From positions 1 through 24,239 of the IMG/VR virus record IMGVR_UViG_3300047509_000032: a stretch of DNA of 24,239 nucleotides. The stretch is one strand, 5' to 3'. Of this stretch, positions 1,094 to 19,661 are shown one piece after another. The translations under genes and the position numbers were made by a program. The DNA comes from a virus. Numbering within the stretch: position 1 is the stretch's first letter; every line of letters starts with the position of its first letter. The notes beneath the pieces were generated by a model. It was not told the origin of the DNA, ran no database searches, and saw only the letters and a list, made by a program, of their open reading frames with translations.

Positions 1094-1238
1094 GCGCCCG
1101 TACCGGCACTACACGGATGACGAGCTGTTCAAGCTGGCCTTGCGGCTAGAGGATGAAAACCTGCAAACAGTCTTCTACATGGAACAGCTTGCCCTTGTCG
1201 AGGCCGAGATCTCCGAGCGCGAGTGGGCTAGCGACTAA
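1086..1238 (+). CDS. Small hypothetical protein, 50 residues
   Basis: The ATG at 1086 sits inside the stop region of the preceding hydrolase gene (ATGCCTAA, 8-base overlap), which suggests translational coupling. The product is short, charged and predicted helical (for example DDELFKLALRLEDENLQ), without membrane segments or cysteines. No family is recognised. Its last 11 bases overlap the 3' end of the glycosidase gene on the opposite strand, so the two transcription units converge without an intergenic terminator. An upstream ATG at 987 in the same frame would run antiphase through the hydrolase and is less likely. Confidence 0.6.
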   Translation: MPKRPYRHYTDDELFKLALRLEDENLQTVFYMEQLALVEAEISEREWASD

Positions 1239-2637
1239 GGACAATTACTGTTCCGGCAGGAACGGTAAGCACCTTTGCACCCGTCACATGCCCGGTAAGC
1301 ACGTGCGAAGACGCGGTACTGATCCGGTACGTGGTGTAGGCAGCAGTTGACGGAACGGTCATTACACGGGAAGCCGAGACACTGAGGTTCACGTACGCGT
1401 ACGCACGATGACCACCGCGCAGCTCCGACTCGTACTCCTGCTGGTACCCTGTGTCGACCAGCTTGAACAGCTCTGCGTGCGGCTGTGCGAGCCGTGAAGC
1501 CATCCAGTACCCGAAGTACGGCGGCTGAGGCACACCGCTACCGTCAAACATGGCATAGTCCGCCACAGCACACGATCCGTGGCTGTTATTGTTGTCTGAC
1601 TGCTCCCACCAGTTGACGTTTGACGCACCGTAAGAGAGCCATGCAAGAGAAGATGCAGCGGCGAATACCGCTCCGGTAGGCGTGCAAACGTCCGTGTTAG
1701 CTTTGTTGGACATGTTCTCTTCACCGATTTGCCACGGCTTCCCGGGACTGTACGTCTTAATATCCTTGAGCACAGCCGATGCCTCGCCGGGGATGTACCT
1801 GACTGAGTTAAGGGCAGCCGCAGCTCCGAGCGACGTAGAGTCATTGCTCGGGTACCAGAGAACGACTATTCCGTCATAATTCTTAAGAACAGGCATAACC
1901 GTGTCATTCCACACGTAACCAGAATTACCCTTAGGACTGATAGCATACGGAAGCTCAATTCTAACGCCAGGGTCAGCGGCCTTAATAGCGTTAATGAATG
2001 CGGGCGCGTACGTTAGGTATGACTGCCCCATTACTTTCAGTCCTGCCGCGACACTCCCGTACACATCATACGGGCAGGTTGCGGGGTCATTAGGCTCGTA
2101 ACCTGTGTCATTCACGGGAGGCTTAGTAAGCGGTATGATGATAGACCCGCAGCCGTACGGTTCATTGCCAATCTCAAATGAGCTTACGGGATATCCCGAA
2201 TCCTTAACCTGCTTAGCCCATGCGGCAGCCATACTAGGAGAGCCAGAACCGTAATTGGCAGTCGCCATGACGTTTCCGTTTACAGCCTCAGCGTTCACCA
2301 TTGACGCAGGAAAGCTTAGCGGGTCCGAATACGAGCACGGAGCGTTAAAGTTACCCGTTTCCGGGCGGCAACTGTACGTATTACGGTTGTTCTGCTCGTC
2401 ATACCCGTCTGCGTACGTTCCGCCTCCCCACCGGATAGCCATAGGACCCAAACCTTGCAAGTCCTTATTCATCTGAGCGTTAGCTCCGGAATCAGCGGTC
2501 TGCCACGGTGAGACGTTAATACCCAGAGGCGTACCCGAAAGGGCCGTACCCACAGGTACGGCAGCAGAGGCAACGCCGCTAGCCGCTGCCGCAGTACCAA
2601 CTGCGATAGCGGCGGCAGCGGCTAGAGACTTAAGCAC
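1228..2637 (-). CDS. Secreted glycoside hydrolase, clan GH-A-like
   Basis: The 469-residue product has a clear Sec signal peptide (MLKS, an alanine-rich hydrophobic stretch, then ASA). It also has hallmarks of a TIM-barrel retaining glycosidase: an early IRWGGGTYAD strand, EIGNEPYG with the asparagine-glutamate pair expected for the acid/base (about N158-E159), and WQIGEEN with the likely nucleophile (E306 or E307). Families GH30, GH39, GH51 and GH79 share this plan; the exact family cannot be fixed by eye. A small C-terminal beta domain follows. I chose the GTG at 2637 because it overlaps the upstream stop by 8 bases and leaves a normal signal peptide; a GTG at 2664 is possible. It is last in the minus-strand unit. 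It would be exported from the infected or lysogenic cell rather than built into the virion; cell-wall polysaccharide or environmental glycan are candidate substrates (inference). Confidence 0.75.
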   Translation of the reverse strand: MLKSLAAAAAIAVGTAAAASGVASAAVPVGTALSGTPLGINVSPWQTADSGANAQMNKDLQGLGPMAIRWGGGTYADGYDEQNNRNTYSCRPETGNFNAPCSYSDPLSFPASMVNAEAVNGNVMATANYGSGSPSMAAAWAKQVKDSGYPVSSFEIGNEPYGCGSIIIPLTKPPVNDTGYEPNDPATCPYDVYGSVAAGLKVMGQSYLTYAPAFINAIKAADPGVRIELPYAISPKGNSGYVWNDTVMPVLKNYDGIVVLWYPSNDSTSLGAAAALNSVRYIPGEASAVLKDIKTYSPGKPWQIGEENMSNKANTDVCTPTGAVFAAASSLAWLSYGASNVNWWEQSDNNNSHGSCAVADYAMFDGSGVPQPPYFGYWMASRLAQPHAELFKLVDTGYQQEYESELRGGHRAYAYVNLSVSASRVMTVPSTAAYTTYRISTASSHVLTGHVTGAKVLTVPAGTVIVLSR

Positions 2638-3145
2638 CCGGAACCGGAACAGTGATGTACTCACGGTCAGCCGCGCCCGTGACGAGCTTGACGTTACCCG
2701 TACCGGGAGCTGACGCGCTAGCGCCGAACAGGCCTACATACTCACCAGGACGTGCAGACGCCGGAACAGTCACGGTGACAACGCCTGACACAGACTGACC
2801 AGGCTGCAGCACTTCCGACGCCGGGAACGTAGACGTAACCCATGAAGCCGGAACAAGGGTGCCCTTAACCGCGCTCCAGTTCCACTGCCCGAAAGTCAGG
2901 GTAGACGGAACATTGCCAGTGCCCTCAAACTTAACGTTGAATGACGCCGAAGTGCCCGGGGCAATAGGTGTGTTACCGGGGACGGCATTAGCCTCAGTTC
3001 CGTAGTACCGCATATTAGTTACCGTGTCCCCGATATACGCTCCGGTGATGCCTACGCCTGCGGTAGGCACGGTAGACGCGAACGCAGCGGCCGAACCGCC
3101 GAGAGTACCTATAACGGCGAGCGCCGCAATAGCCTTAAGCTTCAT
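2630..3145 (-). CDS. Secreted beta-sandwich (Ig-like) protein
   Basis: This is a 171-residue protein with a textbook signal peptide (MKLKAIAALAVIGTLGGSAAAFAS). A single threonine/valine-rich beta domain follows, resembling NEW3/Ig-like accessory modules of secreted glycosidases: LQPGQSVSGVVTVTVPAS followed by RPGEYVGLFGA is typical of that fold. The ATG at 3145 follows a good AAGGAAA ribosome site 9 bases upstream, itself placed just after the stop of the zinc-finger gene. Its stop overlaps the start of the glycosidase gene by 8 bases, so the two are probably translated together and may act together outside the cell. It has no catalytic motif, so binding or scaffolding is the likeliest role (inference). 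Confidence 0.65.
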   Translation of the reverse strand: MKLKAIAALAVIGTLGGSAAAFASTVPTAGVGITGAYIGDTVTNMRYYGTEANAVPGNTPIAPGTSASFNVKFEGTGNVPSTLTFGQWNWSAVKGTLVPASWVTSTFPASEVLQPGQSVSGVVTVTVPASARPGEYVGLFGASASAPGTGNVKLVTGAADREYITVPVPGA

Positions 3146-3744: not shown

Positions 3745-5019
3745 CTAGTGGAATATGATGGCTAGCACGGACCCGAGCGCTATTAGGATGGACACTCCGG
3801 CGAGCAAAAGAGAGTAAGAGGCTCGCGCTCCCTCTTGGCGGCCTGTGCTCTGATCCAGACGAGATGTCAGCCTTAGCTCAAGATTGGAAACACGCTCAGT
3901 TAGCGCATCTATCTTATCTGCAACCGCTTGGTAAGATGCCGCATGCTCAACGCGACTGATTAGCGTGGCCGCCTGATCTGCCAGTTGCCCCCGGAACTCA
4001 TTTGTAGCCTTGAACCGTTCTCCTGCGGCGGATTCTGCCTTGCTAGCTGCCTTCTCTGCGGCTGCCAACGCGGCCTGGACAGCTTTGTCCGCTGCGTCGA
4101 AAGCGGTTTTCATGGCCGTGTTGTGCATGGCAAACCCGGCAGCGATGTACGTCCCCGTGGACGTGGACAGGGATGCGATGGTACCGCGCGCCCGCTGGCC
4201 CACGCAATGGACAGTCACCGCCCGCGCGTCACCGCTGATGCTGTGGCCCTCCCACACCCGGTCGCTGTGCGCGAGCAGCCGGGCAGGCCGCACGCTGCCA
4301 AGGAGCTTCATCACATCAGCGCGCCTGGATACCTGGTAACGGTTAATGAGTTTCTTGTTGTGGTAACGTCCGGCCTCCACCTGCGTTATGGCCGGGTCAC
4401 GGCCAAGGCAGTCCTTGACAGCCATAAGCAGGGCATCCGCCGTAGGGCCGGCAGCCTGGGCGATCCCCAGGCGGGCACTGCGGTCGCCTGGCGCGAACGT
4501 CAGCCAGCCCTCACCGTCGTACATGCCCGACAGCCAGCCGCCGTCCCACGTCCGGTCCACTTCCCAGACGTCCGTGACGTGCATGACCTGGTTACCTGGC
4601 CTGAGATCCCTGGTCTTACGCCAGAGCCAGCGATTCTCGTGCTTGGTCTTTACCAGCCACGGATGCTCAGGATTGCACCGCACGTCACCTGCCGCCGTCC
4701 TCACCAGCATCAGGTCATCCTGTGCCAGCCTGTTCGCGGTGACAACAGCACGCCGGAAGTTCCGGCCACTGCGTCCGGTGCCGGTATCTGACTCTGCATC
4801 AAACGCGATCAGCTCGTCACCCGGCCGCAGTTCACCGGCTGGTCGCCACACCAGATCAGCGCACAAAACCGGCGTGGATGCCTCGCAGCACTGCTGCGCT
4901 ACGAAAGCTGCGTCCGTGGCTTTAGTCTGCGTGGCGTACCGTTCATCCAGCGCTGTCCGCAGGTCTGTTAGCTGAGACTCAAAGTACTTTTTAAGGGTCT
5001 TAAGCGTCCAGCCGGTCAC
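3745..5019 (-). CDS. Coiled-coil membrane protein interrupted by an intein
   Basis: The 424-residue precursor starts at a GTG whose GTGA overlaps the previous stop. Residues 1-43 and 301-424 are the host protein: an amphipathic start (LKKYFESQLTDLRTALDERY), a long alanine-rich coiled coil containing NEFRGQLADQA, and a C-terminal membrane helix (about 402-423). Joined across the intein, the pieces read continuously (AQQ then TAMKTAF) as a 167-residue protein. This matches a type of small membrane-anchored coiled-coil protein I recognise from actinophages, often suspected of a holin-like or tail-associated role, though its function is not established. Residues 44-300 are an intein, described separately. 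Loss of splicing would put a 257-residue domain in the middle of the coiled coil. Confidence 0.8.
   Translation of the reverse strand: MTGWTLKTLKKYFESQLTDLRTALDERYATQTKATDAAFVAQQCCEASTPVLCADLVWRPAGELRPGDELIAFDAESDTGTGRSGRNFRRAVVTANRLAQDDLMLVRTAAGDVRCNPEHPWLVKTKHENRWLWRKTRDLRPGNQVMHVTDVWEVDRTWDGGWLSGMYDGEGWLTFAPGDRSARLGIAQAAGPTADALLMAVKDCLGRDPAITQVEAGRYHNKKLINRYQVSRRADVMKLLGSVRPARLLAHSDRVWEGHSISGDARAVTVHCVGQRARGTIASLSTSTGTYIAAGFAMHNTAMKTAFDAADKAVQAALAAAEKAASKAESAAGERFKATNEFRGQLADQAATLISRVEHAASYQAVADKIDALTERVSNLELRLTSRLDQSTGRQEGARASYSLLLAGVSILIALGSVLAIIFH
4120..4890 (-). other. Intein with single LAGLIDADG-type motif
   Basis: The segment codes residues 44-300 of the coiled-coil protein. It starts with Cys44 and shows an N-terminal splicing block ending in ELRPGDELIAFD. 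A B block follows with NPEHPW (residues 116-121), then an endonuclease-like motif GWLSGMYDGEGWL (161-173), and a C-terminal block with GTYIAAGFAMHN. Asn300 is followed by Thr301 as the first C-extein residue. These are the expected catalytic residues for protein splicing (Cys1, block-B His, His-Asn, +1 Thr). Cys45 directly after Cys44 leaves a one-residue uncertainty at the N-junction, but Cys44 gives the continuous extein. Only one LAGLIDADG-like motif is visible, so a homing nuclease may be reduced. The DNA is clearly more GC-rich than its surroundings (about 70% at 4141-4260), a sign of recent arrival. Confidence 0.85.
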
Positions 5020-5168
5020 TTGAGACTCACCACAGCATTCAGAACAGAGTCCAGCGCATCGTAATAAGCGTCCCAGTACGCGCTTCCAGGGTCGATATCA
5101 TTATCTGTGTCAAACTCTGCGCGGTCAAGCTTAGCCTGTAGCCACGAGATGAACTGTTCCTTAGTCAC
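5016..5168 (-). CDS. Small acidic hypothetical protein, 50 residues
   Basis: A GTG at 5168 begins a 50-codon frame ending in a TGA at 5016-5018. The product starts TKEQFISWLQAKLDRAEF and continues with an aspartate- and tyrosine-rich stretch (SAYWDAYYDALD). It is acidic, probably helical, without cysteines or membrane segments. It overlaps the FmdB-type gene upstream by 8 bases and the GTG start of the intein-bearing gene downstream by 4 bases (GTGA), so its place in a tightly coupled operon is the best argument that it is real. No family is recognised. Confidence 0.65.
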   Translation of the reverse strand: MTKEQFISWLQAKLDRAEFDTDNDIDPGSAYWDAYYDALDSVLNAVVSLK

Positions 5169-5412
5169 TTGAGTACCTGTTCTGGTTGTTAGGGTTGCGT
5201 CCTACGTTCGGCCGCGCCACATTGTCATTGCATGCGAAGCCAGGGCCTAGGAAGACCGCCGTAGGAACACTGCGGATAACACGCTTCATAGGTGCGTCAC
5301 ACGCGTAACAGAACTGGGTTTCATCGCAATCGGAGATCGGATGCACAAGTTCCTGTACTTCATCTAGGCAGGTGCACGTCTGGTTACCGCACACGTAGTC
5401 ATACTTAGGCAT
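5161..5412 (-). CDS. FmdB-type zinc ribbon protein
   Basis: Starting at the ATG at 5412, the 83-residue protein opens with MPKYDYVC and has two cysteine pairs (CGNQTC and CYAC). It continues with PMKRVIRSVP and FLGPGFACND, the layout of the FmdB/zinc-ribbon family (an M-P-x-Y-x-Y start, a treble-clef zinc ribbon, then an F-x-G-x-G-F-like end). Members are small, poorly understood, putative regulatory zinc proteins. A start 12 codons upstream (5448) is possible, but it would precede the likely promoter: a TATACT at 5424-5419 lies 6 bases before the ATG, so the message is probably leaderless, and no Shine-Dalgarno is present. It heads the minus-strand group that leads to the secreted proteins. 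Confidence 0.75.
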   Translation of the reverse strand: MPKYDYVCGNQTCTCLDEVQELVHPISDCDETQFCYACDAPMKRVIRSVPTAVFLGPGFACNDNVARPNVGRNPNNQNRYSSD

Positions 5413-5448
5413 ATCAAGAGTATACTTATACTTGTGGACTTTGAGCAA
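5413..5448 (-). promoter_or_regulatory. Leaderless sigma-A-type promoter for the FmdB-type gene
   Basis: On the minus strand TTGCTC (5448-5443) and TATACT (5424-5419) are 18 bases apart, close to the -35 and -10 consensus. The -10 ends 6 bases before the ATG at 5412, so transcription would begin at or next to the start codon. The same stretch on the + strand holds two tandem TATACT boxes (5421-5426, 5427-5432) just before a GTG at 5434, so it could fire in both directions. This is a sequence-pattern call only. Confidence 0.5.
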
Positions 5449-5787
5449 CAGCTACACGAAGCAGAAGAGAATTATTTCTACGCAGACACGGTTTCTGACC
5501 GCCTGCACTACGCGTCTGAGATCTGGGAGGCAATGAAATCCTTGAAATCAGGCGATGCGCCGTCATCAAACGCGTTAACCAGGGCTGCTACATACACTTT
5601 TTCTAGTCCGGAGAGCTTACTTATCCGATTTAGCGTGTACTTGCGCCTTAGCATCCAGCAGATTGTCATCAGGGTGCCTGTAGTGTGCCCAACCCATTCT
5701 GTAGACGCGAACTTGCACTCGATCATGGCTTCCACGCCGAGTAGTTCCACGTCTGAGAGCCTGAAAACAGGCGGCGGGAGCGCATAA
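5434..5787 (+). CDS. Possible antisense small protein over the WhiB gene end
   Basis: A GTG at 5434 opens a 117-codon frame. Its first roughly 45 residues look like a real protein (FEQQLHEAEENYFYADTVSD, then a helical segment with WEAMKSLK), and the codons there resemble neighbouring genes. The rest, antisense to the WhiB-like gene, turns serine/threonine-rich and looks like a shadow frame. TATACT boxes just upstream could give a leaderless message. The 280-base antiparallel overlap with a well supported gene argues against the full length. The frame may be a genuine short gene whose 3' end has been lost, or a coincidence. Confidence 0.25.
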   Translation: MDFEQQLHEAEENYFYADTVSDRLHYASEIWEAMKSLKSGDAPSSNALTRAATYTFSSPESLLIRFSVYLRLSIQQIVIRVPVVCPTHSVDANLHSIMASTPSSSTSESLKTGGGSA

Positions 5788-6017
5788 GGAGTGTCCGATA
5801 CGTCTTTACCCTCATAGTAAAGCTTGCCGGCGCATGTACCAGTGAATTCATCTTGCACAGGGTTAACGTGTGTGTAGCACAACTGAGCTACAGGGCACTG
5901 AGCGCAGATACGCCGCGCGGTATCAAACGCCCCGCGAGACGTAGACGCGAAAAGTGCTACGTCTCCCTTGCACTCAGCTCCGTCATACAGCTCTACGCAC
6001 TCTTTACGGTTCAGCAT
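5508..6017 (-). CDS. WhiB-like Fe-S transcriptional regulator, atypical
   Basis: The 169-residue protein has the WhiB cysteine pattern C16, then 21 residues, C38-x2-C41-x5-C47, which in the family binds a 4Fe-4S cluster and contacts the primary sigma factor. The usual G-V/I-W-G-G turn is replaced by GTCAGKLYYEG (with an extra C62). There is also a long C-terminal extension with a helix-turn-helix look (LNRISKLSGLEKVYVAALVN). Typical WhiB proteins are about 80-130 residues, so this is long. The ATG at 6017 has a fair AAGGA site 7 bases upstream. It reads away from the terminase genes and toward the FmdB-type gene, so it could control one or both units; the targets are inference. The degenerate turn makes the mode of DNA or sigma binding uncertain. 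Confidence 0.75.
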   Translation of the reverse strand: MLNRKECVELYDGAECKGDVALFASTSRGAFDTARRICAQCPVAQLCYTHVNPVQDEFTGTCAGKLYYEGKDVSDTPYALPPPVFRLSDVELLGVEAMIECKFASTEWVGHTTGTLMTICWMLRRKYTLNRISKLSGLEKVYVAALVNAFDDGASPDFKDFIASQISDA

Positions 6018-6086: not shown

Positions 6087-6671
6087 ATGTGCGCGCACAA
6101 GTTTAAGAACGGGCAGCTATGCCCTAACGAGCCTAAGGACGGGAATCAGTATTGCGGTAGGTGCATAGGAATCTGCAAGGCCGGTCAGGTCAAAAACACT
6201 GCGATAGAGCCGAAGAAAGAACCAAAGGCTGACGCGACAGCACGTAAGCTGCTGCATGAGATCATGCAGCAGAACGACGTTAACATTGAGATCCGTGAGT
6301 GGGATACCAACTTTAACCCGTTCGATGCTCTGCTGGACATTGCTCAGGAGCAGATGCAGTGGAAGGATCTCTGCCTGTCTAAGATCTCTAAGCTCAAGGA
6401 AGACGAATGGCGCTGGGACGGCGACCGCGCGGGAGAACAGATTCGGAGTGAGATCACGCTTTACGAACGAGCCATTGACCGTGCTACCAAGACGCTAGAA
6501 CGCATTGCCCGGCTAGGCATTGAGGACCGTCTGATGCGTATTGCCGAGCGGCAAGCTGCTATTGTCGAAACGGCTATCGTACGGACGCTGCAGGATCTTG
6601 ATCTTCCTATCGAGCTACAGGCTAAAGCGCGTCAGAAGATGGTTATGCACCTAAGGGCTACGCGTGTTTAA
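6087..6671 (+). CDS. Terminase small subunit with N-terminal zinc finger
   Basis: The 194-residue protein starts with a cysteine/histidine cluster (C2, H4, C12, C23, C26, C30) that looks like a zinc-binding domain. It continues with the charged helical body seen in actinophage terminase small subunits (NPFDALLDIAQEQMQWKD, then GEQIRSEITLYERAIDR and RIARLGIEDRL). Such proteins bind the packaging site and load the large subunit. The start has a strong GGAGG site. It overlaps the terminase large subunit by 8 bases (GTG at 6664 before TAA at 6669). The gene order supports the assignment more than sequence similarity alone, and the zinc domain may provide the DNA contact (inference). Confidence 0.7.
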   Translation: MCAHKFKNGQLCPNEPKDGNQYCGRCIGICKAGQVKNTAIEPKKEPKADATARKLLHEIMQQNDVNIEIREWDTNFNPFDALLDIAQEQMQWKDLCLSKISKLKEDEWRWDGDRAGEQIRSEITLYERAIDRATKTLERIARLGIEDRLMRIAERQAAIVETAIVRTLQDLDLPIELQAKARQKMVMHLRATRV

Positions 6672-8244
6672 TAAGCCTGACCTGTTCCATATGGTCGCGG
6701 ACTCCATGGAGTCGGGCCAGAATGACCCGCGCGTTAAGTGGCGTGATACGGCCCGGCCGGATCAGCTCCCGCCAGAGGGCAAGTGGTCTACATGGCTGGT
6801 ACGCGGCGGTCGTGGGTCCGGTAAGACTCACACAGGTGCTTTTACCATGGTCACGTGGATTCTAGATGACCGCGATTCCCTAAATTACGAGCCCGGCGCA
6901 TGGGGTATCGTCGGGCCTACTTTTCAGTCCGCATGGACTGTTTGCGTGGAGGGTGAGTCAGGCATCCTCGCCGCGTTCGGCACTAATATGTCAGAAGTAC
7001 GCCAGGGCAAGTCTAAGTACGTAGCGCACGCATGGCGGTCACACGGTGAGATCCGGCTGCGGGACGGCGACACGATCTACGTCGACTCCGCTAATGATGG
7101 TGCGGACCGCGTGCAGGGTAAGAACCTGAAAGGCGTCTGGTGCGACGAACTCGGCATGTGGGCTAAGTGGGAGCAGGCATGGGACGAAGCCATCATGTAT
7201 GCCTGCCGTAAATCCGGTAGCCGTAAGGTCTGCACGACCACGCCTAAGGTCTCCCGTCCTGCTGCTAAGCTGATCCGCCGCCTGATTCAGGACCCTGACA
7301 TTCCCGTAGCTAAGCTACGTACCGTAGATAACGCGGCAAACCTGTCTGAAGCGTTCATTGACAGCGTTGTCGGACGCGCTAAGGGTACGAGACTTGAGAA
7401 GCAGGAACTTGAGGGTGAACTGCTGGATGACGTGTCAGGCGCTCTGTGGGCATGGCCGCTGCTGGAGAACACGACAGTTCGCGCGTTGCCTGAAGGCGTC
7501 AAGCTGAAGACTGTGTACGTAGGCGTTGACCCCTCTGACGGTAAGGAATCCGGTGACGAGCAGGCTTACACGGTAGTCGGCATGGGAAGCGACAATGAGC
7601 TGTACGTAGTGGAGAGCTGGGGAGACAAGATCAGCCCTAACGCTTTCCTGCGTAAGGCTGTAGATGCCGCAGTACGCTGGGATGCTTCCCTTGTTGTGGA
7701 AAAGAACCACGGTCAGGGCTATCTGGATCTCTCACTCAAGCAGGTCCAGAAAGACATGGGTACTAACCGTCCTGTACTGCTTAAGCAGGCATCTAAGGGT
7801 AAGAAGACACGTGCCGAGCCTGTAGCTGCTCTGTACGAGCGTAAGTTCGTGCACCACGTTAAACCGCTTAAGCGCAATGACGACGGTGATTACGTCGAGG
7901 AAGACCAGTTCGGGGAGCTGGAAGACCAGATGTGCAGCTTTACAGGCGCGTCTGACGAGAAATCTCCTGACAGGCTGGACAGCCTTGTGTGGGCGGTTTT
8001 CCCGTTCCTGCACCACGCATTCGGTAATACAGGCCCGCATAAGCCGCGCGTGCACGTGTGGAACGCTCAGGTACCCGATCCTAAGCCACTTGAGCGCTCA
8101 GACAGGGGCCGTCACTCTTACGTCGAGCCTATCAAGTACGACAGTAATCCTACGCTAGAGGATGAAGAGGATAACTGGGCACCGCCTAACGTCGTGAACA
8201 CCCGGCGAAACGTTCATGAATGGGGTACTGGGGGTATACTGTAA
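6664..8244 (+). CDS. terL: Terminase large subunit (packaging ATPase/nuclease)
   Basis: The 526-residue protein has a Walker A loop RGGRGSGKT (47-55), a Walker B ending CDE (D161, E162) and a TTTP coupling motif (191-194). Its C-terminal RNase H-like nuclease domain has acidic residues D289 (VGVDPS), E346 (VVEKNHGQG) and D436/D439 (PDRLD). It is the motor that cuts and pumps DNA into the prohead through the portal. It starts at a GTG overlapping the small-subunit stop by 8 bases, typical of coupled translation. Length and motifs are complete, with no sign of an intein, unlike the coiled-coil gene nearby. Confidence 0.95.
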   Translation: MFNKPDLFHMVADSMESGQNDPRVKWRDTARPDQLPPEGKWSTWLVRGGRGSGKTHTGAFTMVTWILDDRDSLNYEPGAWGIVGPTFQSAWTVCVEGESGILAAFGTNMSEVRQGKSKYVAHAWRSHGEIRLRDGDTIYVDSANDGADRVQGKNLKGVWCDELGMWAKWEQAWDEAIMYACRKSGSRKVCTTTPKVSRPAAKLIRRLIQDPDIPVAKLRTVDNAANLSEAFIDSVVGRAKGTRLEKQELEGELLDDVSGALWAWPLLENTTVRALPEGVKLKTVYVGVDPSDGKESGDEQAYTVVGMGSDNELYVVESWGDKISPNAFLRKAVDAAVRWDASLVVEKNHGQGYLDLSLKQVQKDMGTNRPVLLKQASKGKKTRAEPVAALYERKFVHHVKPLKRNDDGDYVEEDQFGELEDQMCSFTGASDEKSPDRLDSLVWAVFPFLHHAFGNTGPHKPRVHVWNAQVPDPKPLERSDRGRHSYVEPIKYDSNPTLEDEEDNWAPPNVVNTRRNVHEWGTGGIL

Positions 8245-16163: not shown

Positions 16164-16318
16164 TGGCTACTAGGGCAGGCAGCGGGCAGTCCAGCGGTAT
16201 TACCGCTTCTGCCGGTGCGCTTACGGCTACGCATGCGACAGTGAGTGCGCACGTGCACCCTGCCACTGCTGCCCCCGTATGCGCGCCCGAATCACCGCCT
16301 ACGACCAACGAGCACTAA
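16163..16318 (+). CDS. Small hypothetical protein, 51 residues
   Basis: The ATG overlaps the preceding stop (TAATGG) and the frame ends with the TAA at 16316-16318, two bases of which fall in the stem of a perfect inverted repeat. The product is alanine/threonine/serine-rich, with several histidines and prolines (HATVSAHVHPATAAP), and looks unstructured. No family is recognised; support comes from the tight overlap and the terminator placement right at its stop codon. Confidence 0.5.
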   Translation: MATRAGSGQSSGITASAGALTATHATVSAHVHPATAAPVCAPESPPTTNEH

Positions 16319-16353
16319 GTAGTAAAAGAGCCTATAAGGCTCTTTTACTACTT
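16317..16353. terminator. Perfect 16-bp inverted repeat, probable terminator
   Basis: AAGTAGTAAAAGAGCC (16317-16332) and its exact complement (16338-16353) flank a 5-base loop, TATAA. The stem has a GAGCC/GGCTC core followed by TTTT, so it can stop transcription, and its symmetry makes it usable from both strands. It begins inside the stop codon of the 51-residue gene and lies just before the spike gene, whose ATG is 22 bases on. Confidence 0.75.
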
Positions 16354-16374
16354 TGTAAAGGAAGCAAGTGTAGT

Positions 16375-19299
16375 ATGGCACTCAGTACAGTCACGCTTAC
16401 TTGGAATCTGACGGACTTTCTTAGTACCGCGATTCCTGACTCCTGTACGCTATACATCACTCCTACTAGTACTCTTGCTGACACTGCCGATAGCAAGACG
16501 CTTATCGGTGTAACACGTGCTACATCGTTTACTGGCGGTGCCGGATCTTGGTCCGGTATCGTCGCTAACGACAACGTAACCCTAGCTCCGGCCAACAGTG
16601 CGTATACAATTCGTATCATTGACAACGTTACTGGTAGCACCATTATCGGGCCTTTCACATCGCCCGTCAACCACGCTGCAGGTGCTACACAGGATCTTTC
16701 CCTGCTTTACGCTAACCAGGTTAGCACTGTTCCTTTCTTCCAGTACGTGACTACAGCGGCGCTTCCCTCGCTAGTCGCTGCCGCCACTGCCGCTGATCTC
16801 GGTACCACGTACAGTGTGCTTACATTCGGTGCAGACCCTACAGGCGTGACTGACTCGACTGCAGCCATTCAGGCTACTATCAATGCTGTTACAGGTAACG
16901 CTAACCCGGTAACTACCTCACGGTCAGCTATTGCACAGGTATACCTGCCTACCGGCGTGTATAAGATCTCTACCGACCTGCTTATACAGTCTGTTCAGGG
17001 ATTCCGCCTTTACGGCGACGGACCTGAGATGACTTTCATTAAGGCGTCGGGTACAGGTTTCACTAACGGACCTATCACTATTGACGGCTCGTACGCTGGT
17101 CGCTATGAGGGTTTCACGATCCTAGGTGACACTACTGAGCAGGTTAACAACGCTATCACGCTTACGTGGACTACGAACGCCCACCGTTCTACCACGGGTA
17201 ACAAGTTCGCAGACATTCGTATTCGTAACCTCAACTTTGTCACTGGTTTTAACATGGCCGGTGTGGGTAACCGTCAGCTTGACTCTACTAAGCTTAGTTG
17301 TATCGTGGTCGGTGGCGGCTTCGGGCCGACAACCTGGAGTAATTCGGGTAACTGGCAGCAGGGTTTCGTATTCGGTAACAGTACCTTCGCTAACATCTAC
17401 GACCAGGTACTTGAACGGTGCGAGCCATCTGGCTGCTACTACGGCTTCTACAATAACGTCTCCAGTTTCTCGCTTAACGGGTCGCAGCCCGCCAACAACT
17501 TTATTGACTTCTACATGTCCCCCGGTGCGCAGAGCACGATCACCAACGTTCAGTCGCAGAACTGCGGTCAGTTCCTCTTCGCCCCGTCGAACTTCTCGGC
17601 AATTCCGAACTCTTTCAACGACATTCAGGTTAAGAGCAGTTTCCTTCAGGACAGCGGCAACGCGATCATCTCTCTCGCTGGCGGCACGTGGAACTTTAAT
17701 AACTTCAGTGCCACCGGCCTTCAGGTAACTACGACCGTAGCTGCCGGAAGTAACGGCGGCGCTATTAACACGATCGCATCCTGGGCATTCCCTTCGGCTG
17801 GCGTGCTGGCTGTAGCGTCCACCAACGGTCTGCCGACCTCTGGACAGATGAACGTCGTAACGTCTACCACTAACGCCGTGATCAGTTACACAGGCCTTAG
17901 CGGCGGTAATACGCTCACCGGCTGCACGTACGTATCCGGAGGCACGGGTACTGTATCCACAGGCGGTAACGTGTTCAACTACGTTAACGGTACTATTTCC
18001 CTAGTTGGACCTAGCACGACACGTCCCTGTACCGCACTGTTTAACAACCTGGCCCTACGCGGTTCGCGAGCTAGCGCTTTCACCCCACTGACTCACGCAA
18101 TTGTCTCGTGCCAGGGATACTCTAACTACGAACCCACCACAGGCGTTTACACCTACGCAACTGGTGACGTTTCTTCCATTAACCTCGGTGGTATCTGGAC
18201 TACCCTAGGCGGCCCCGGAACTCCGCAGCAGGTCAACTATATTACGGCTACTGGTAACACCACGTATAACATTCCAGTAGGTGCAGTAACCCTAGACGTT
18301 ATGATCGTCGGAGGCGGCGCTGGCGGATCGTCGGGCGCATTCTCTACCACGGGTGCTGCGGGGGGTGGACCAGGCGGCGCGGGTGGTGGCGTGTGTAAGC
18401 AGCAGTTCCAAGCTAGTGCGCTTACTAGTCCGCTTACGGTAACCGTAGGTGCTGGCGGCGCGGGCGGTGCTGCTGTTACTTCTGGTGCCAACGGTAACTC
18501 CGGAGTAGCGGGCACTAACACCAACTTCGGTACCTACATGTTCGCAAAGGGAGGCAGTGCTTCCAGTGGAGGCCTCGCCACTAACGCCTCGATTCAGACT
18601 GGCGCTGCTGGCGGCCCTGGTACGTGCGTAAGCGGTGCGGGAGGGTCTACAGTTACTACGTCTGCTGTACCGTCATCGGCAACGGCGCAGACAACAGGCG
18701 GTGGCGGCGCGGGCGGCGGCATACCGATTTGCTCGACTACGGTCGCGGCTGGCAGCAACGGCGGCACGATCACGAACATTGCGTCATGGGCTAACCCATC
18801 TGCCGGTACCCTGTCCGTTGCTGCTACTACAAACTTCCCCGCGTCTGGTACGGCTACTGTAGCCTGCTCGGTTTCTTCCCCGGCAACAATTACCTACACG
18901 GGAGTCACGGCTAACACGCTAACTGGTTGTGCGTATGTTTCTGGCGGAACTGGGACCGTAGCCACTGGCGGCGCAGTTATTACACAGGGGGCGGCGCAGA
19001 ACGGCGCGGGCTGCACAGCGCCAGTACTCGGAGTAGCCAGCAACTCGTCCAGCGGTGGCGTCGTCGGTGGCGCGAGCCCGACCAACGGCAGCGCGCCTAC
19101 GGCTCAGGGGGATACGGCACCTGGCGGTGGCGGTGGCGCGGCGGCGCTGTCTGGTACGGCCCAAGGCGGCGCTGCTGCACAGGCTAACTCTGGCGGTGGC
19201 GGTGGCGGTGGCGGTGCCGCTTCTAACGGGGCTACATCTTCAGGTGCAGGCGGCGCGGGCGGTTCCGGTTTTTGTCTTATTATCGCTTACTTCCAGTAG
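16375..19299 (+). CDS. Large tailspike/tail fibre with beta-helix and glycine-rich tip
   Basis: From the ATG at 16375 the product has 974 residues. Residues 1-120 (MALSTVTLTWNLTDFL to the QDLSLLYAN region) form a small beta domain that recurs alone in the gene at 19308 and is probably the virion-attachment part. From about 146, YSVLTFGADPTGVTDSTAAI starts a pectate-lyase-like beta-helix. From about 641 to the end the chain is extremely glycine-rich (MIVGGGAGGSSG and many GGG runs), resembling polyglycine-sandwich adhesin tips. An 81-residue module occurs twice (453-533 and 788-868), the second copy inside the glycine-rich part. It probably binds or degrades a surface glycan. The reading frame from 16279 is not used because it crosses the terminator. 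Confidence 0.8.
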   Translation: MALSTVTLTWNLTDFLSTAIPDSCTLYITPTSTLADTADSKTLIGVTRATSFTGGAGSWSGIVANDNVTLAPANSAYTIRIIDNVTGSTIIGPFTSPVNHAAGATQDLSLLYANQVSTVPFFQYVTTAALPSLVAAATAADLGTTYSVLTFGADPTGVTDSTAAIQATINAVTGNANPVTTSRSAIAQVYLPTGVYKISTDLLIQSVQGFRLYGDGPEMTFIKASGTGFTNGPITIDGSYAGRYEGFTILGDTTEQVNNAITLTWTTNAHRSTTGNKFADIRIRNLNFVTGFNMAGVGNRQLDSTKLSCIVVGGGFGPTTWSNSGNWQQGFVFGNSTFANIYDQVLERCEPSGCYYGFYNNVSSFSLNGSQPANNFIDFYMSPGAQSTITNVQSQNCGQFLFAPSNFSAIPNSFNDIQVKSSFLQDSGNAIISLAGGTWNFNNFSATGLQVTTTVAAGSNGGAINTIASWAFPSAGVLAVASTNGLPTSGQMNVVTSTTNAVISYTGLSGGNTLTGCTYVSGGTGTVSTGGNVFNYVNGTISLVGPSTTRPCTALFNNLALRGSRASAFTPLTHAIVSCQGYSNYEPTTGVYTYATGDVSSINLGGIWTTLGGPGTPQQVNYITATGNTTYNIPVGAVTLDVMIVGGGAGGSSGAFSTTGAAGGGPGGAGGGVCKQQFQASALTSPLTVTVGAGGAGGAAVTSGANGNSGVAGTNTNFGTYMFAKGGSASSGGLATNASIQTGAAGGPGTCVSGAGGSTVTTSAVPSSATAQTTGGGGAGGGIPICSTTVAAGSNGGTITNIASWANPSAGTLSVAATTNFPASGTATVACSVSSPATITYTGVTANTLTGCAYVSGGTGTVATGGAVITQGAAQNGAGCTAPVLGVASNSSSGGVVGGASPTNGSAPTAQGDTAPGGGGGAAALSGTAQGGAAAQANSGGGGGGGGAASNGATSSGAGGAGGSGFCLIIAYFQ
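17731..17973 (+). repeat. Spike internal module, copy 1
   Basis: Eighty-one codons starting TTVAAGSNGGAINTIASWA and ending GGTGTVSTGGNV, matched by the second copy at 18736-18978 with the same length. Shared landmarks are IASWA-PSAG, a Y-TG step, TLTGC-YVSGGTGTV and TGG-V. The module sits between the beta-helix and the next part of the spike. The DNA has diverged, so the duplication is not recent. Confidence 0.8.
18736..18978 (+). repeat. Spike internal module, copy 2
   Basis: The second copy begins TTVAAGSNGGTITNIASWA and ends GGTGTVATGGAV, again 81 codons. It is embedded in the glycine-rich tip, splitting it in two, which suggests that the module is a self-contained fold (for example a small beta domain) that can be shuffled within fibre genes. 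Confidence 0.8.
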
Positions 19300-19307
19300 G
19301 AGATCTA

Positions 19308-19661
19308 GTGGCTCTTAACACAGTAACTCTTACGTGGAACATAACGGACTTCCTTGTCGCGAGCATTACTGACTCATGCACGATATACCTAACGCCGACT
19401 ACTAACCTAGATGACGTTACTGATGGTAGGGCCATCCTTGCCATAACCCGGTCACAATCCTTTACCGGAGGTACCGGGTCACTGGCGGGCATCATAGCTA
19501 ATGATAACGTGCAGCTTACCCCTACGGGTAGCGGTTATATTATCCGTATTCAGGACAACGTTACCCTAGGCTATCTACTAGGCCCGTTCACCAGTGTCAT
19601 TGCCTTTGCTAACGGGGCAACGCAAGATCTTTCCGCCATCTATGCTTCACGTCAAGTCTGA
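19308..19661 (+). CDS. Stand-alone copy of the spike attachment domain
   Basis: A GTG at 19308 with AGGAG 7 bases upstream gives a 117-residue protein that aligns end to end with residues 1-117 of the preceding spike. Both have MAL-TVTLTWN-TDFL, DSCT-Y-TPT, SFTGG-GS--GI-ANDNV, IRI-DNVT, GPFTS and GATQDLS--YA. It stops where the spike passes into its beta-helix. It may be a shared baseplate or spike-anchor subunit, a cap, or what is left of a second spike. The TGA stop is part of an extended -10 promoter for the next gene. The longer frame from 19272 would start inside the spike gene and is unlikely. Confidence 0.75.
   Translation: MALNTVTLTWNITDFLVASITDSCTIYLTPTTNLDDVTDGRAILAITRSQSFTGGTGSLAGIIANDNVQLTPTGSGYIIRIQDNVTLGYLLGPFTSVIAFANGATQDLSAIYASRQV

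Follow-up and report, generated by a model that had tools for sequence, protein, structure and literature searches.

What is an intein doing in a small membrane protein of a phage? The question is raised by a 24,239-nucleotide stretch of soil phage DNA (IMG/VR record IMGVR_UViG_3300047509_000032, positions 1-24,239; hereafter the window), in which a minus-strand open reading frame encodes a 424-aa precursor, with a GTG start, whose intein interrupts a helical protein with a C-terminal anchor. All phage intein hosts that could be classified have been described as binding nucleic acid; a class comprising 11 inteins, hosted by hypothetical proteins, was left unresolved (Kelley et al. 2016, PMC5050341). 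We consider it highly probable that we are dealing with a mobile intein of class-1 type which resides in a probable lysis-module membrane protein, removes itself from it, spreads by homing and is losing its endonuclease. The parts of the gene are as follows.

3745-5019, minus strand: precursor ORF, 424 aa, GTG start (ORF call)
4891-5019, minus strand: N-extein, 43 aa, ending ...DAAFVAQQ (junction alignment with intein-free homologues)
4120-4890, minus strand: intein, 257 aa, Cys1...His256-Asn257, a Hint domain with an inserted LAGLIDADG half-domain (homology and predicted fold)
4254-4520, minus strand: endonuclease segment, intein residues 124-212, absent in contig L002 (comparison with L002)
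4507-4536, minus strand: LAGLIDADG-type motif WLSGMYDGEG, single copy, putative catalytic acid Glu127 (alignment; modelled helix 115-127)
3745-4119, minus strand: C-extein, 124 aa plus stop, beginning TAMKTAFDAADKAV (junction alignment)
3754-3810, minus strand: C-terminal hydrophobic membrane anchor of the extein (hydropathy)

The intein corresponds to precursor residues 44-300, and joining of the two exteins (43 + 124 aa) would give a product of 167 aa. Judged by its sequence, the element at 4120-4890 is a complete class-1-type intein of the form Cys1...His-Asn/Thr. The original prediction had called an intein here from the letters alone, and its coordinates (4120-4890), its residues (Cys44 and the HN-T end, here His299-Asn300/Thr301) and its GC figure (about 70%) were all correct. 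In a tblastn search of 50,697 phage records the intein was aligned end to end (residues 1-257) with E values from 6e-26 to 8e-23, 178 records giving matches; among these were portal-protein inteins of Gordonia phages (32.8% identity, E 6e-26) and terminase-like inteins of cluster C mycobacteriophages (31-32%, E 5e-25). In an IMG/VR scan 139 relatives were found, and a profile built from 41 family members matched PI-PfuI, Mxe GyrA, gp41-1 and I-AniI in the PDB. Searching with Pfam Hint/intein models, as had been proposed, gave no match on the window protein itself but succeeded within the family, where Intein_splicing matched 16 and LAGLIDADG_3 matched 18 of the 41 members; the homology of the window protein therefore rests on tblastn, the family profile and the fold. 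The AlphaFold model of the intein (pLDDT 94, pTM 0.90) has a Hint fold, and its splicing domain superimposes on the Mtu RecA intein with a Z score of 19.1 and an rmsd of 1.9 over 131 residues.

The residues expected to carry out splicing are in place. Cys44 of the precursor, which is Cys1 of the intein, is invariant in the 41 relatives, as is His76, and His256, Asn257 and Thr+1 are likewise intact. Block B reads N-P-E-H-P-W, with Asn73 where Thr is usual and His76 kept, and block F lacks the usual Asp. Both departures recur in most members of the close clade described below, so they may be tolerated, or they may slow splicing. From the intact residues and the predicted fold we infer that the precursor undergoes protein splicing. 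Cys10 and Cys72 (window positions ~4861-4863 and ~4675-4677) are, besides Cys1, invariant in five aligned close-clade sequences. Other classifications were considered and rejected. Class 3 inteins are defined by a WCT triplet of Trp B:12, Cys F:4 and Thr G:5 (PMC5050341); here B:12 is occupied by Trp78, as this definition asks, but the alignment, counted back from HN, puts Ala at F:4, and Met255 stands at G:5. Bacterial intein-like (BIL) domains are Hint domains of variable host proteins that lack a precise insertion into an intein-free homologue; this classification was ruled out because the element here is inserted precisely and in frame within conserved sequence. Matches to a MORN repeat (E 0.008-0.016), phosphomevalonate kinase or DUF models fell below cut-offs.

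The boundaries of the insertion are given by homologues without it. Seven intein-free proteins (in contigs L003, L005, L006, L008, L020, L027 and L028, of up to 118 kb), whose best segments are 37-66% identical, run contiguously across AAFVAQQ/xAM or xAV, which bears out the AQQ/TAM junction of the original prediction. The site lies within the most conserved stretch of the extein: in an alignment of five proteins, invariant residues fill 34 of the 36 positions in the interval 26-61, compared with 33 of 131 elsewhere.

Between the splicing halves the AlphaFold model places one LAGLIDADG half-domain (residues 115-200) with the order alpha-beta-beta-alpha-beta-beta-alpha, that is, helix 115-127, two strands, helix 149-162, two strands and helix 190-200. 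Its single motif, already noticed in the original prediction, includes D125-G-E-G128, conserved in at least 90% of the intein family. DNA cutting by this half-domain is a plausible inference; since only one endonuclease half is present, homing would need a dimer, and the ability to home may already be lost. Contig L002 (IMG/VR 3300045257_000055), whose identity with the window is 99.6-99.8% across 5.5 kb, has the same intein in the same place with an in-frame deletion of 267 bp (89 aa) that removes residues 124-212, the entire endonuclease half. A 3-bp microhomology, TGT, is found at the deletion breakpoints, which sets the register to within ±3 bp. Contig L002 breaks off 130 bp past the intein, and a library chimera is a possible source of the deletion. 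The remaining 168 aa keep the predicted Hint fold (pLDDT 89.5), and we read the L002 element as a natural mini-intein that is new. A second mini-intein of the clade, of 177 aa and with deletion endpoints unlike those of L002, is found in L042. As read from these alleles, the endonuclease has been lost at least twice, independently, with the splicing domain kept, and empty, full and endonuclease-less states all appear to be present at one site. Beside the intein gene, a zinc-ribbon gene (window 5022-5448, L002 4719-4995) has been replaced or has diverged, with 79% identity over 121 bp, and a small ORF of ~47 aa in this region of the window is absent from L002; the zinc-ribbon difference reads as a recombination edge adjoining the intein gene.

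In a maximum-likelihood tree of 82 inteins, the window intein falls in a nine-member clade (support 100/100, branch 0.66) together with those of the IMG/VR contigs L002, L111, L112, L032, L116, L030, L042 and L031. The L111 intein (49% identical), from an unrelated 110-kb contig, occupies the site of the window intein (AAFIAQQ/TAL). Those of L112 (52%) and L032 (52%, counting what the contig contains of it) lie at AE[KR]AVQ/TAL, the downstream side in L032 being beyond the contig end; that of L116 (46%) lies at AAEKAV/SKAE, and those of L030 (47%) and L042 (55%) at EKRF[E/D]/[S/T]VNEFR. Eight of the clade hosts belong to one Ala-rich helical family, with a C-terminal anchor wherever the C-terminus is present. 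The ninth intein (44%; L031:1970-3688) is inserted in an amidase-like endolysin at its HxxxxxxTHxDPG motif. The annotated endolysin of Brevibacterium phage AGM4 is contiguous there (GHQHAPEN/THGDPG), and L031 reads GHVHASGN/intein/THWDPG; its extein is matched by 101 intein-free phage records and gave no match in a PDB sequence search. The clade occupies this protein family at four sites and an endolysin once, a distribution that is new. Sites b (L112 and L032) and d (L030 and L042) are each consistent with a single origin. An AU test in which the two site-a inteins (window and L111) formed one clade gave p-AU 0.449, so site switching within the gene is not claimed. No close-clade intein was found in a genome scan of 84,980 bacterial and archaeal species. 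Hosts in the wider intein family include, as named by sequence inspection, terminases, portals and a nicotinamide phosphoribosyltransferase-like enzyme; outside the close clade, the hosts of the L055 and L091 inteins (33-34%) resemble cell-wall hydrolases by eye.

The host protein itself is small, helical and membrane-anchored, much as had been predicted. The first 140 residues of the 167-aa product are free of proline and have a helical periodicity near 3.6-3.7, from which a coiled coil may be read, and the single strong hydrophobic segment lies at the C-terminus, where Kyte-Doolittle hydropathy peaks at 2.75 (residue 147 of 167). In IMG/VR at least 252 homologues make up a large, unnamed, tail-anchored Ala-rich family (L127-L209 among them), with the C-terminal anchor in 51 of the 53 ORFs that could be called. 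Searches of Pfam and PHROGs gave the family no name and no holin match; none of the 50,697 GenBank phage records matched the extein, a search in which the BLAST low-complexity filter may hide Ala-rich helices, and the genome scan placed the family in three bacterial genomes only. Among the extein-selected loci scanned, the intein is present in the window, L002 and L111 only.

Gene order links this family to lysis. Endolysins are the commonest PHROG matches among 124 neighbouring ORFs, six of which match Amidase_2. Across 50 extein-bearing contigs an Amidase_2 gene is present in seven, and in six of these it lies no more than 2 kb from the extein gene. Uniform placement would give this with a probability of 3e-6, but the clustering of phage genes makes that null a weak one. 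In L030 the gene is preceded by a holin (Holin_2-3), an SLT endolysin and two genes that match spanins weakly. The host protein is thus probably a member of the lysis module. The term "holin-like" in the original prediction is supported in part: the endolysin linkage agrees with it, but L030 encodes a separate canonical holin, so the extein protein need not be the holin. L111 also has, at 6108-6707, a sortase-like gene near an Rv2525c-like endolysin.

The origin of the intein was approached through its composition. GC content reaches 70.0% at 4141-4260 and is 65.1% over the intein, compared with 56-57% in the exteins and 54.9% in the window; among all 771-bp stretches of the window, the intein has the highest GC content. 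This contrast fits a foreign origin and suggests a donor of higher GC, and gives no date. The original prediction had spoken of recent entry; foreign origin agrees with the contrast, but "recent" is unsupported: the lineage is deep, and at least two strains share the intein, one of which has already lost the endonuclease. The adjoining terminase (6664-8244), which matches Terminase_6N and Terminase_6C, is uninterrupted, as had been stated. Elsewhere in the window, a diverged WhiB-like protein (5508-6017, minus strand; PHROG 472, E 9e-7) points to an actinobacterial host. A 478-aa protein (1228-2664, minus strand) with a signal-peptide-like start looks like a glycoside hydrolase by eye and has no Pfam match; beside it, 2630-3145 (minus strand) gives a weak NPCBM-associated match. 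The start of a 1006-aa tail-fibre-like ORF (16279-19299) shares a TVTLTWN[LI]TDFL... domain with a 129-aa ORF (19272-19661), probably a duplication.

Taken together, these observations can be arranged in a life cycle. The intein would be translated within the tail-anchored, Ala-rich helical phage protein and fold as a Hint domain. Cys1 would undergo an N-S shift, followed by attack of Thr+1, cyclisation of Asn257 aided by His256 and an O-N shift, and excision would leave the 167-aa membrane protein. At co-infection, a dimer of LAGLIDADG half-domains may cut intein-free copies of the conserved stretch, by which the intein DNA would spread. Autocatalytic removal and homing by a dimer are taken from established intein biology, in which the homing cycle predicts loss of the endonuclease with retention of the splicing domain. 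The clade would have specialised on the extein family, at four sites, and entered an endolysin once, with the endonuclease lost at least twice. A homing parasite at a late stage of erosion suffices to account for all the observations.

The same observations can be read in other ways. The intein might have been retained for regulation, with splicing that is slow or conditional postponing the moment at which a working membrane lysis protein is present. The linkage of the extein family to lysis genes, the retention of the splicing domain in two independent alleles that have lost the endonuclease (L002 and L042) and the presence of the clade in an endolysin motif (L031) would suit such a role. However, most relatives of the extein do without an intein, L030 has its own canonical holin, and mini-inteins are accounted for by neutral persistence, because loss of an intein needs a precise deletion; their retention is what neutral decay leads one to expect and is by itself no proof of function. 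We regard regulation as unlikely. It is also doubtful that the lineage has specialised on lysis-module proteins in such a way that its endonuclease-less forms keep splicing in order to set the time of membrane-protein activation. The timing switch of the original prediction is possible and unsupported, gene location being all that speaks for it.

A further reading, that the intein no longer splices and leaves either a dead gene or a precursor cleaved into two functional pieces, could draw on the departures from the canonical residues in block B (Asn) and block F, and on the high-GC insert of unusual composition. It seems to us very unlikely, as the junction nucleophiles and penultimate His are intact in an open frame, the predicted fold is well formed, the non-canonical residues are common to most clade members, and the L002 deletion kept both the frame and the splicing domain. 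That the intein gene was stitched into the ORF by assembly or binning is scarcely credible: the window is a single metagenomic contig with a contrast in GC, but the independent contig L002 has identical junctions together with a recombined neighbour gene and a deletion, and the intein at the same site in L111 is only 49% identical; these two refute an artefact as the source of the insertion. We therefore retain the eroding, homing intein as our reading. That its clade occupies a membrane-anchored, apparently non-enzymatic protein at four sites, and an endolysin besides, suggests that conservation of the target and DNA flow can suffice for an intein without nucleic-acid chemistry. The two near-identical alleles, one carrying the endonuclease and the other lacking it, offer, along with the empty alleles, a clean pair for separating the roles of endonuclease and splicing.

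Compared with known systems, this is an ordinary intein in kind, and its host class is unusual and apparently unreported. No intein was found in 224 mycobacteriophage endolysins (PMC3314691), and our full-text search of the open-access literature found no prior intein in a holin, an endolysin or a membrane coiled-coil protein. The inteins of L111, L112, L032, L116, L030, L042 and L031, which share the clade of the window intein and add three other sites and, in L031, an endolysin, have no description that we could find in that literature. With the Mtu RecA intein (PDB 2in8) the splicing domain has the Hint fold in common, at 20% identity and in a DNA recombinase host. The portal intein of Gordonia phage Anamika and its relatives (Woesvirus) can be aligned along all 257 aa, at 33% identity, and has the same block layout, the single DGEG motif and the Cys1 and HN ends; it differs in its host, the portal protein being an unrelated protein with an unrelated site. 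The Pham3880 inteins of cluster C1 mycobacteriophages (LinStu gp250) align end to end with the window intein at 31-32%, but interrupt a terminase-like protein. The LinStu intein probably shares its family with the Pham3880-g intein (ScottMcG gp245), which was shown by experiment to splice, with its precursor visible (Kelley et al. 2016, PMC5050341).
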